A stretch of 64,000 nt of DNA from Ignavibacteria bacterium. GTDB lineage: Bacteria > Bacteroidota > Ignavibacteria > Kapaibacteriales > UBA2268. The stretch covers positions 1-64,000 of the forward strand of contig JAAYTD010000029.1 in the NCBI GenBank assembly GCA_012518115.1. Reading direction: 5' to 3'. Under the pieces are notes generated by a model that had not been told where the DNA came from, searched no databases, and worked only from the letters and a program-made list of their open reading frames with translations. The position numbers and the translations under genes were made by a program. This document shows positions 1 to 4,176 of the stretch, piece after piece; position 1 is the stretch's first letter; every line of letters begins with the position of its first letter.

Positions 1-1330
1 GAAGAAAAAAAGATAGTAAAAGACAATTATAAGCAGAACGTTGCTAATGACAATAAAACAAAAAATGTTGAAAATAAAGACAATAGATATCTAAATATAA
101 ACAAAAAGATAGATGAGGAAAACATACTAAGTATTGATAAAGAAAAGATAGGCATAAGCAACTACAAAGAAAACAAGAACGAAAGAAGCGATGAAAAAAA
201 GATAAACATAGAAAATAATAAACAAAATGTAGTTAGCAACGAGAAAACAAAAAGTATTGAAAAAATTGATACTAACTATGTAAATGTAAACAAAACGATA
301 GAAAATGAAAAGACACTAAATAGTGAAGAAGAAAAGGTAAACATAAACGCTAGCAAAGAAAGTAACATAACTGAGAATAAAAATGAAAGAAACGAAGAAA
401 AAAAGATAATAACAGAAAATAATAAACAAAACTTATTAAACAAAAATAAAATAAAAAATAGTGAAAATATAGATGAAAGCTATACAACTACAAATAAAAA
501 AATAGAATACAAAAATATAGTAAATCATGACGAAGAAAAAATAAACGTAAGCAACAACAAAGAAAGTAAAACAGCAGAAAATAAAAGTGGAAGAAACGAA
601 GAAAAAAAGATAATAACAGAAAATAATAAGCAAAACTTATTAAACAAAAATAAAATAAAAAATAGTGGAAATATAGATGAGCGAGAGATAAATACAAACA
701 AATATATTGACTATGAAAGTGTAATAAATCATGACGAAGAAAAGATAAACATAATCAACAGCAAAGAAAATAAGATAACAGAAAACAAATATGTAAGAAA
801 TGAAGAAAAAAAGATAATAACAGAAAATAATAAACAAAACGTATTAAACAATCATAAAACAAAAAATAGTGAAAATATAGATGAAAGCTATACAACTACA
901 AATAAAAAAATAGAATATGAAAATATAGTAAATCATGACGAAGAAAAAATAAACGTAAGCAACAACAAAGAAAGTAACAACGAAGAAAAAAAGATAATAA
1001 CAGAAAATAAGCAAAATGTATTGAATAACAAAACAAAAAATAGTGAAAATATAGATGAAAGCTATACAACTACAAATAAAAAAATAGAATACGAAAATAT
1101 AGTAAATCATAACGAAGAAAAAATAAACGTAAGCAACAACAAAGAAAGTAACAACGAAGAAAAAAAGATAATAACAGAAAATAATAAACAAAACGTATTT
1201 AATAACGAAAAATCAAAAAATATTGAAAAAATTAAAAACAGCTATATAAATACAAACAAACAGATAAACTATGAAAGTGTAGTAAACAATAACGAAGAAA
1301 AGGTAAACATAAATAACAACAAAGACATTA
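1..1330 (+). repeat. In-frame tandem repeats of about 58-68 codons in the FliK N-terminal/ruler region
   Basis: The anchor GA[AT]GAAAAAAAGATA recurs at 1, 190, 394, 598, 802, 982 and 1156 (spacings 189, 204, 204, 204, 180, 174, all multiples of 3). Long blocks such as GAAAATATAGATGAAAGCTATACAACTACAAATAAAAAAATAGAATA are identical between copies. Confidence 0.9.
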
Positions 1331-2058
1331 AAAAAATAAATAATGAAACGAAAACAAGCGAAATTAAAATCTTAGCTGATAATGAGTTTGAATTAAATAA
1401 TTTTAAGCAATCTGATGATCAAGAAGATAATAATTTTAGCCAAAATGATAATAATAACCTTAATACAAACGACAAGAATTTTCAAGGAACAAATTTTACA
1501 AAAGATGTTATCAACAATTTATCAAGTGGTTTAGATAATCGTTTTAATTTGTCTAATTCACCTGTTTATTTTAATAGTTTTAAAAATAAATCATTTACAA
1601 ATATAAAAATAACGGAATATCCTGATGCTATTGTACAATTTGCACATTCTTTATCTTCAGGAGAAATTGGTATAGCTAAGCTTATTTTACAGCCACAATC
1701 ACTTGGCACAGTCTTTGTAGAAATAAATATGAATGATACAGAGCCTGTAATTATTTTCAAGACAAATAATGAAGAGACATTAAAAATAATTGAAAATAAT
1801 ATTGGCAACTTAAAAGAAACTTTTAGTAAAACAAATCTTGAAAATATTGATTTTAGATTTGAAAAACAAGAACATTTACAACAAGATTTAACAGATAGAG
1901 ACAGACAACAAAACACTAATAAACAAGAGGAGCGTTTTAAATACGCTCAACTTCTAAATTCATTTGCCAATAACGTTCAGGAAGAACCTATTTTAGCAAT
2001 GGAAAATGAAGTAAAAACGCGACTGATACAAAGTCGAATTATAGAAAGATACATTTAA
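1..2058 (+). CDS. fliK: FliK-like flagellar hook-length control protein, 5' partial (ORF open from base 1; the ORF track starts it at an internal TTG at 1021)
   Basis: Frame 1 reads without a stop from base 1 to the TAA at 2056-2058. The C-terminal part (AIVQFAHSLSSGEIGIAKLILQPQSLGTVFVEINM) matches the Flg_hook/FliK C-terminal pattern, and flgD and flgE follow directly. Confidence 0.8.
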   Translation, partial: EEKKIVKDNYKQNVANDNKTKNVENKDNRYLNINKKIDEENILSIDKEKIGISNYKENKNERSDEKKINIENNKQNVVSNEKTKSIEKIDTNYVNVNKTIENEKTLNSEEEKVNINASKESNITENKNERNEEKKIITENNKQNLLNKNKIKNSENIDESYTTTNKKIEYKNIVNHDEEKINVSNNKESKTAENKSGRNEEKKIITENNKQNLLNKNKIKNSGNIDEREINTNKYIDYESVINHDEEKINIINSKENKITENKYVRNEEKKIITENNKQNVLNNHKTKNSENIDESYTTTNKKIEYENIVNHDEEKINVSNNKESNNEEKKIITENKQNVLNNKTKNSENIDESYTTTNKKIEYENIVNHNEEKINVSNNKESNNEEKKIITENNKQNVFNNEKSKNIEKIKNSYINTNKQINYESVVNNNEEKVNINNNKDIKKINNETKTSEIKILADNEFELNNFKQSDDQEDNNFSQNDNNNLNTNDKNFQGTNFTKDVINNLSSGLDNRFNLSNSPVYFNSFKNKSFTNIKITEYPDAIVQFAHSLSSGEIGIAKLILQPQSLGTVFVEINMNDTEPVIIFKTNNEETLKIIENNIGNLKETFSKTNLENIDFRFEKQEHLQQDLTDRDRQQNTNKQEERFKYAQLLNSFANNVQEEPILAMENEVKTRLIQSRIIERYI

Positions 2059-2102: not shown

Positions 2103-2807
2103 ATGGCATCATACATACCAGATGTAAGTTTAAAAAACAATAATTCTTTTGCTTCAACAGCATTAAAAAATAACACATTATCTGCATCGGAGCAAAAAAA
2201 CGAATTTTTACAATTATTAACTTATCAACTAAAAAATCAAAATCCAACAGCCCCCTATAACAATCAGGAATTTGCTGCTCAGTTAGCTACATTTTCTCAA
2301 TTGGAACAATTGACAAGTATCAAGCAGCTACTGACTAATCAATCTGATTTGTTTGGAACATTAGCTATGAGTATAGAAAATACTGCTATACCAGGCATGA
2401 TAGGAAAATACGCTAAAGCTATTACAAATCAAGTCAAACTTGACGGAACAAATGGTGCTGTTATAGGATTTGAAAACAAATTTAACGCTGCAAGTGGCAA
2501 CTTAGTAATAAGAAATAGTTCAGGCAATATTATTAGAACAATTGAATTAAACCATTCAGAATGTATGGCAGGTGAACATACGATAAAATGGGATGGAAAA
2601 GACAATAACGGTAATGTATTGCCAGCAGGTAATTATTTTATATCGGCAGAACTAAACGATGCAAATGGTGGAATTCTAAATTCAACTACATTTGTTGTCG
2701 GCAAAATAAGTTCCGTTAAATTTAAACAAGAAGGCACAATGTTGGTTGTTGGTGGCATCGAAATTTCTCTTGACAGAATTTCTGACATAAGAGAATCAGC
2801 ATTTTAA
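2103..2807 (+). CDS. flgD: Flagellar hook capping/assembly protein FlgD
   Basis: NEFLQLLTYQLKNQNPTAPYNNQEFAAQLATFSQLEQLTSI core; FlgD Ig-like region (IKWDGKDNNGNVLPAGNYFISAEL); located between fliK-like and flgE. Confidence 0.93.
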   Translation: MASYIPDVSLKNNNSFASTALKNNTLSASEQKNEFLQLLTYQLKNQNPTAPYNNQEFAAQLATFSQLEQLTSIKQLLTNQSDLFGTLAMSIENTAIPGMIGKYAKAITNQVKLDGTNGAVIGFENKFNAASGNLVIRNSSGNIIRTIELNHSECMAGEHTIKWDGKDNNGNVLPAGNYFISAELNDANGGILNSTTFVVGKISSVKFKQEGTMLVVGGIEISLDRISDIRESAF

Positions 2808-2856: not shown

Positions 2857-4176
2857 ATGAGTTTATCAAGATCATTATCAATTGGTACGAGCTCTTTACA
2901 AGCACACCAATCGAAATTTGACGTAATATCTAACAATCTTGCAAACGCAAGTACCGTTGGCTATAAAGCAAACAGAGCAAATTTTGCAGAACAATTTAAT
3001 CAAATTTATAATCGCGGTAAAGCGCCTGAAGCAAATACAGGCTACAGTAACGGGGGAACAAATCCTTTACAGTTTGGTTTAGGAGTAAAACTAGCTAGTA
3101 TTAGTCAAGATATGATGCAAGGAGTAATTGAATCAACAAATCGTCCATTAGATGCTGCACTACAAGGCGATGGTTTTTTTGTTGTCAATTATAATGGACA
3201 ACCTCAATATACTAGAGCAGGAGCTTTTACAAGAGATGAAGAAGGTTATCTTGTTGATACAAATACAGGTGCATTTATTCAAGGCTACAATACTGAAAAT
3301 GATGCAGACGGAAAACCTGTAAGAAATTCAGATGGCAGTAATCGTTTAGACAGAACATTAACTAACGTCAGAATACCTTGGGACACAGTGTCATTACCAC
3401 GTCAAACACAAAATATTACTATCGTAGGAAACTTGAACTCTGAAGCTCCTGAAGGCAGTGATAGTATCCGTAAAACAAGTATGACAATCTACGATAATAC
3501 AGGTGCAGCACGCGTACTCACTTTTACTTTCGAAAAAACTGCTGAAAAAGGTGAATGGAATTTATCTGCACAAATTGATGGAAAAGACACTGTAATAAGT
3601 GAAACTCTTATTCAATTTAAGACTGATGGAACTCTTGAATCACCTCTTGCTATCATGATTAACGCTGCAGATGCTAACACTACACTCGAAAGTGATGGAT
3701 TATTTGTACATCCTATAAAAATTCAACTTACTGACCCTAACAATCTAACATACGGTCTTAAAAATTACTCAGCTGATAGTACAGCAAATTTTGAAAAACA
3801 AGACGGCTTCCCTCTTGGAGATTTAATTAATTTAAATTTTGACGAACAAGGAAGATTATTAGGATCATTTACTAATGGACAAACGGAAATTCTATCGCAA
3901 ATTGCTATAGCTAAGTTCCCAAATAATGAAGGACTTGTACGAAATGGAAACAATTATTTTTCCGTATCTCCAAACTCAGGTGATGCTATTATTGGTACAG
4001 CTATTGAAATTTTTCCGACTACACAAGTTAAAGGATATGCATTGGAACAATCAAACGTTAATTTAGCTAATGAATTTACCGAAATGATTTCTACACAAAG
4101 AGCTTATGAATCTGCTTCAAGAGTCATAACTGTAAGCGATACAATGCTAGCTGAGTTAAATCAACTTAAACGATAG
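2857..4176 (+). CDS. flgE: Flagellar hook protein FlgE
   Basis: N-terminal SLSIGTSSLQAHQSKFDVISNNLANASTVGYKANRANFAEQ and C-terminal EQSNVNLANEFTEMISTQRAYESASRVITVSDTMLAELNQLKR are classic rod/hook family termini. Confidence 0.95.
   Translation: MSLSRSLSIGTSSLQAHQSKFDVISNNLANASTVGYKANRANFAEQFNQIYNRGKAPEANTGYSNGGTNPLQFGLGVKLASISQDMMQGVIESTNRPLDAALQGDGFFVVNYNGQPQYTRAGAFTRDEEGYLVDTNTGAFIQGYNTENDADGKPVRNSDGSNRLDRTLTNVRIPWDTVSLPRQTQNITIVGNLNSEAPEGSDSIRKTSMTIYDNTGAARVLTFTFEKTAEKGEWNLSAQIDGKDTVISETLIQFKTDGTLESPLAIMINAADANTTLESDGLFVHPIKIQLTDPNNLTYGLKNYSADSTANFEKQDGFPLGDLINLNFDEQGRLLGSFTNGQTEILSQIAIAKFPNNEGLVRNGNNYFSVSPNSGDAIIGTAIEIFPTTQVKGYALEQSNVNLANEFTEMISTQRAYESASRVITVSDTMLAELNQLKR

Follow-up and report, generated by a model that had tools for sequence, protein, structure and literature searches.

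Tandem repeats in the FliK of an Ignavibacteria bacterium: a long natural variant of a flagellar ruler protein with a putative role in setting hook length

We report that the central part of FliK in an uncultured, Kapabacteria-type Ignavibacteria bacterium has been lengthened by repeated in-frame tandem duplication of a 58-73-residue unit, giving a protein of approximately 1037 aa, roughly double the length usual for FliK, that unrelated arrays have arisen in the corresponding part of FliK in other lineages of the family, and that the C-terminal domain is an ordinary export-switch domain. FliK is a secreted protein that ends hook growth via FlhB, and the FliK described here is a natural variant of this known ruler protein. 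By analogy with Salmonella we consider it reasonably probable that the array acts as a ruler or spacer setting hook length. What is at stake is whether selection acts on hook length or whether it drifts as disordered segments grow throughout the genome.

Results

The fliK gene is distributed over two contigs

Base 1 of the window, i.e. of the whole stretch of 64,000 nucleotides that was analysed, is the first nucleotide of contig C5 in a genome of 2.48 Mb and 92 contigs. As described in the earlier note, no stop interrupts frame 1 between base 1 and position 2058, where a TAA ends it after 685 codons (open at the 5' end); because the contig end cuts the gene, no complete ORF was listed for it and the array was, as also pointed out there, missed by the ORF track. 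A DNA search located array repeats also at the start of contig C81 (minus strand), the last 127 bases of which, in the minus-strand reading, are identical to positions 1-127 of the window, and the frame is kept across the join. The 5' part of fliK occupies C81 1183-128 (minus strand, followed by the exact 127 bp overlap) and the 3' two thirds, 685 of approximately 1037 codons, positions 1..2058 of the window (plus strand). When the open frame was extended upstream and searched, neither a stop nor a frameshift was present in the joined 1037 codons (C81 plus C5), and with no stop in the joined frame the reading of fliK as a pseudogene was rejected. The start is either codon 1 or codon 6 of the joined frame, of which codon 6 is more likely given an AGGA shortly upstream.

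Contigs that separate at an exact word usually do so because of a further path in the assembly graph. The longest exact repeat in the joined sequence is 100-104 bp, i.e. shorter than the 127 bp overlap, and an overlap of exactly 127 bases is present at a second pair of contig ends as well, indicating an assembler word length of 127. That C5 and C81 part within the array at an exact 127-mer, though no reconstructed repeat reaches 127 bp, would mark a copy number that is either unresolved in the assembly or polymorphic, and we infer that a loop of extra units or a strain variant was omitted by the assembly at this position. The break inside the array suggests that the copy number of the fliK repeats may be unstable, and it makes the length of 1037 aa provisional.

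Extent and composition of the repeat array

At least seven anchors (of the 'GAAGAAAAAAAGATA...' type) start at positions 1, 190, 394, 598, 802, 982 and 1156, and their spacings (189, 204, 204, 204, 180 and 174 bp) match those given earlier exactly. The extent of the array first proposed stands for these seven anchors, but the true array is longer, with approximately three more units on contig C81. The joined gene has approximately ten units of 46-73 codons each, a degenerate first unit followed by nine, and their prevalent residues are N, K, E and I. Within the window, anchor segmentation and alignment define, all on the plus strand, unit 3 of the joined array (1..189, 63 codons), unit 4 (190..393, 68 codons), unit 5 (394..597, 68 codons), unit 6 (598..801, 68 codons), unit 7 (802..981, 60 codons), unit 8 (982..1155, 58 codons) and the final, diverged unit 9 (1156..1341, 62 codons).

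The near-identity of the last two full units, 7 and 8, was reproduced (95% nucleotide identity over 58 aligned codons), units 5 and 7 are 96% identical, and units 5, 7 and 8 are mutually 94-96% identical at the DNA level. Unit 1, on C81, and unit 4 share 95% nucleotide identity and are offset by 588 bp in the joined sequence, from which it appears that a three-unit block (588 bp) was probably duplicated. TRF gave the array a score of 1008, whereas the best of 200 shuffles of the codons of this segment reached 131, which rules out chance likeness of A-rich codons as its source. Of 45 unit pairs, which are not independent of each other, 44 have a lower dN than dS, with averages of 0.27 and 0.55, respectively. 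Together, the near-identical units, the three-unit duplication and the independent arrays in relatives (see below) support the view that the array grew by recombination. The AlphaFold model of the array, run without an alignment, is a coil with pLDDT of approximately 30 and is uninformative.

Identity and domain anatomy of FliK

Downstream of the array, on the plus strand, follow a non-repeated linker rich in N, D and S (1342..1665; model pLDDT approximately 30), the C-terminal Flg_hook, or export-switch, domain with its PxxLG motif (1666..1884) and a C-terminal tail modelled as a low-confidence helix and ending with IIERYI (1885..2055). The Flg_hook domain, HMM and fold searches, and the flagellar gene context agree on the FliK-family assignment that had been put forward from the sequence. 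The C-terminal domain is recognised by HMM as PF02120 (39.6 bits, cut-off 29.8; E 4.7e-10) and is the sole PF02120 match in the genome. The PxxLG motif is present as PQSLG, and its P, L and G do not vary among the 32 related C-terminal domains aligned (alignment A1), the profile of which gave Salmonella FliKC (2rrl) as the only match in the PDB (E 4.9e-14). In a Foldseek search with the domain model (mean pLDDT 79) 2rrl ranked first and the PscP switch domain (5cuk) second, with nothing else at E < 0.001. The PF02120, 2rrl profile and Foldseek matches overturn the reading that the protein is not a FliK.

A motif of the form [IVF]ExY[IVA] is present at the extreme C-terminus in 16 of 45 related FliKs from various genera and families (window 2041-2055). 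Near residue 52 there is a hydrophobic stretch, SFENLIQLA, which is similar in style to a gate recognition motif (PMC8983047) and may be a candidate for the N-terminal hook-type export signal.

Flagellar gene context

In the window fliK is followed on the plus strand by flgD (hook cap; 2103..2807; PF03963 and PF13860 over cut-off) and flgE (hook protein; 2857..4176; Pfam FlgE domains, and TIGR03506 over cut-off), while genes for an MgtE_N-domain protein and FliM are located upstream on C81, giving the joined order fliM, MgtE_N protein gene, fliK, flgD, flgE. The genome also encodes FlhB with an intact NPTH site, flagellins and further rod/hook-family proteins, and the named relatives of FlgE fall near Candidatus Kapabacteria and Ignavibacteria. 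The sole congener compared, G001, is without FliK, hook genes, all Flg_bbr_C proteins and CsrA, suggesting that its flagella were lost along with the regulator CsrA.

A CsrA-type hairpin at the start of fliK

A short GGA-loop hairpin is located just before or over the fliK start codon in 38 of 45 complete leaders, those of the relatives being taken at the fliK starts of L118-L172, and sometimes a second copy is present upstream. Here it reads TGC-AGGAC-GCA and overlaps the fliK Shine-Dalgarno sequence (L009 on contig C81, approximately 1183-1165, minus strand), and examples among the conserved leaders of relatives are GTGC-AGGAA-GCAC, GGC-AGGAT-GCC and GCGC-AGGAT-GCGC. Stem pairs have changed on both sides (compensatory changes) at three of four positions, a count biased towards structure since the sites were picked for pairing. 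When 607 other genes of the genome were scanned, just 2 had such a site, one being the flagellin gene on C8; flagellin is the classical CsrA target. A fliW-csrA operon is present in the genome (C8, 39.8-40.6 kb), and CsrA was found in 47 of 54 family genomes. The known CsrA site, a GGA in a hairpin loop, is similar to the fliK motif (PMC4894983), and in Campylobacter fliK was only weakly enriched with CsrA (4.1-fold and 1.2-fold). We infer that the translation of fliK is under the control of CsrA-FliW in the clade.

Arrays in the FliK of relatives

A Flg_hook match was obtained in 46 of 54 family genomes. Thirty family FliKs without a clear array, a set that includes the longer frame of the split fliK of G009, are 442-745 aa long (median 549). 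Four FliKs have clear arrays in an intact frame and measure 846, 1037, 1106 and 1170 aa, three of these being from one other genus, g18. Among order-level relatives FliK varies between 1053 and 2414 aa, and some have arrays. The arrays of the other Kapabacteria-type genomes differ in period and copy number: 159 bp x 6.1 in G032, 126 bp x 7.4 in G067, 126 bp x 2 in G018, a small array of 111 bp x 1.9 in G016, and approximately 119 bp x 2 in G009. For arrays in intact FliK frames the period was a multiple of three in all eight measured. No sequence match between arrays was detected at 1e-3, including among the g18 arrays and against the window array, and with unit sequences and periods unrelated between lineages the arrays look independent; their presence across several relatives indicates that lengthening of FliK by tandem duplication is recurrent. 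Inheritance of the array was considered and rejected, since G001 is without FliK, leaving no congener array, and the arrays of other genera are unmatched. Congener pairs with 53-81% identity keep the length preceding FliKC within 0-6%, in a comparison with no neutral control, and this near-constancy is in line with selection on length.

In G009 fliK (L124) is in two frames, apparently owing to an 11-base direct duplication inside an array whose period, 119, is not a multiple of three; this is either a real phase change or an assembly error. A second kind of FliK-like protein of approximately 415-435 aa, with weak Flg_hook scores, is represented by G027 (L139), G064 (L161) and the second Flg_hook matches of G009, G012 and G015; the N-terminal region was read in G027 and G064, and there it contains LRVGEIVRxTIxDRI. 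Among open-licence papers none was found to describe variation of tandem repeats in FliK; one candidate report, PMC6127512, was set aside because its content is unrelated.

Other repeat arrays in the genome

As a baseline, TRF was applied to 875 kb of the 2.48 Mb genome, giving 16 long arrays, 15 of which are in open frames, and approximately ten other genes have long in-frame arrays. Most of the long arrays belong to T9SS-type LRR or WG-repeat proteins (named from sequence), and the remaining ones include TilS, the tail of RpsB and a protein with an 8-residue x 22 repeat. The tilS gene (tRNA lysidine synthetase, with an extension of approximately 500 aa) is on contig C78 (L010:903-3878, minus strand), and the repeat-DNA match on this contig was accordingly discarded as a second FliK. 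The repeated 27-residue acidic tail of RpsB is at L228:3997-4174 (minus strand) and the open frame with the 8-residue unit at L227:15958-16486 (minus strand). The lengths of FliK and TilS correlate over 31 species (rho 0.49, P 0.006), and for 20 genus medians rho was 0.43 (P 0.057). This correlation and the other in-frame array genes together indicate a genome-wide tendency, and part of the FliK length may reflect lineage-wide growth of disordered segments.

Discussion

The Salmonella ruler has been altered in length by engineering, and with FliK variants between 363 and 785 aa in length its hooks measure 42-135 nm, i.e. 0.2 nm per residue, with poorer swimming for FliK above 520 aa (PMC6126814). 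If this holds for the FliK described here, the array would serve as ruler or spacer during FliK secretion through the growing hook, each unit would lengthen the hook by approximately 12-14 nm if the Salmonella slope applies, and a hook of approximately 181 nm would be predicted for the entire protein, which is an extrapolation past the tested 363-785 aa. By the same analogy a longer hook could result from the array. Unequal exchange between units would alter the copy number, and retuning of hook length by copy number, as the earlier note had proposed, is plausible; the case for retuning is weakened because in this clade disordered segments have grown in non-ruler proteins as well. Given the poorer swimming of Salmonella above 520 aa, a ruler of 1037 aa would need another swimming mode or incomplete stretching, and since the array is modelled as very-low-confidence coil, the value of 0.2 nm per residue may not apply. 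That the ruler retunes itself, with recombination between near-identical units in populations stepping hook length by approximately 12-14 nm and an occasional out-of-frame switch-off (perhaps in G009), we regard as unlikely; were it true, hook length would be a variable trait.

An explanation that we consider possible, if on the whole improbable, is that an AT-rich lineage expands disordered N/K/E segments by slippage and unequal exchange wherever these are tolerated, the FliK spacer being one such place with an untuned length, in which case some other feature may determine hook length or the length may be loosely controlled. In keeping with this, the N-terminal extension of TilS in this genome is K/E/N-rich and contains a 483 bp x 2 repeat, TilS open frames range between 457 and 1127 aa in the family, the lengths of FliK and TilS are correlated, and the RpsB tail is repeated. 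However, close congeners hold the length before FliKC within the narrow limits given above despite 19-47% residue change, dN is below dS among the FliK units, and expansion is compatible with function, since neutral expansion too would alter a ruler.

The array might also consist of repeated binding sites, e.g. for FlgE or FlgD in the channel, with copy number influencing the reliability of measuring and not the length of the ruler. Binding of FlgD and FlgE by FliKN is important for length control in Salmonella (PMC6972891), and the unit sequences are conserved here; the arrays of other lineages are, however, unrelated in sequence and most FliKs of relatives are free of repeats, and we judge such a role to be quite unlikely. 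An assembly artefact, in which the array or the C5-C81 join would be a strain chimera, is very improbable: an alternative graph path did exist, as witnessed by contigs that separate within the array with an overlap of exactly 127 bp, but seven in-frame units followed by an intact FliKC are present on the single contig C5, and the join preserves both the frame and the fliM to flgE gene order. With natural FliKs whose lengths span from 442 to more than 1100 aa in a single family, evolution has seemingly repeated the Salmonella ruler engineering via tandem duplications, and the hooks of two or three species could show whether the ruler rule holds in nature.

Comparison with known systems

The Kapabacteria-type FliKs (G032, G067, G018, G016 and G009) share with the present protein a tandem array between the N-terminal part and the switch domain, but their unit sequences and periods are unrelated to those of the window array. 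The YscP/PscP rulers of injectisome needle length (5cuk) have in common with it the C-terminal fold (second-best match) and the logic of ruler and switch, while the present protein is flagellar by its gene neighbourhood and the comparison concerns the switch domain only. Salmonella FliK (405 aa; 2rrl) shares the Flg_hook domain, the PxxLG motif, the fold and the flgD-flgE adjacency, and no recognisable similarity was found between the two proteins beyond the switch domain. Both have a long low-complexity region ahead of that domain, but the present FliK is approximately 2.5 times longer, and its central part is composed of approximately ten tandem units.
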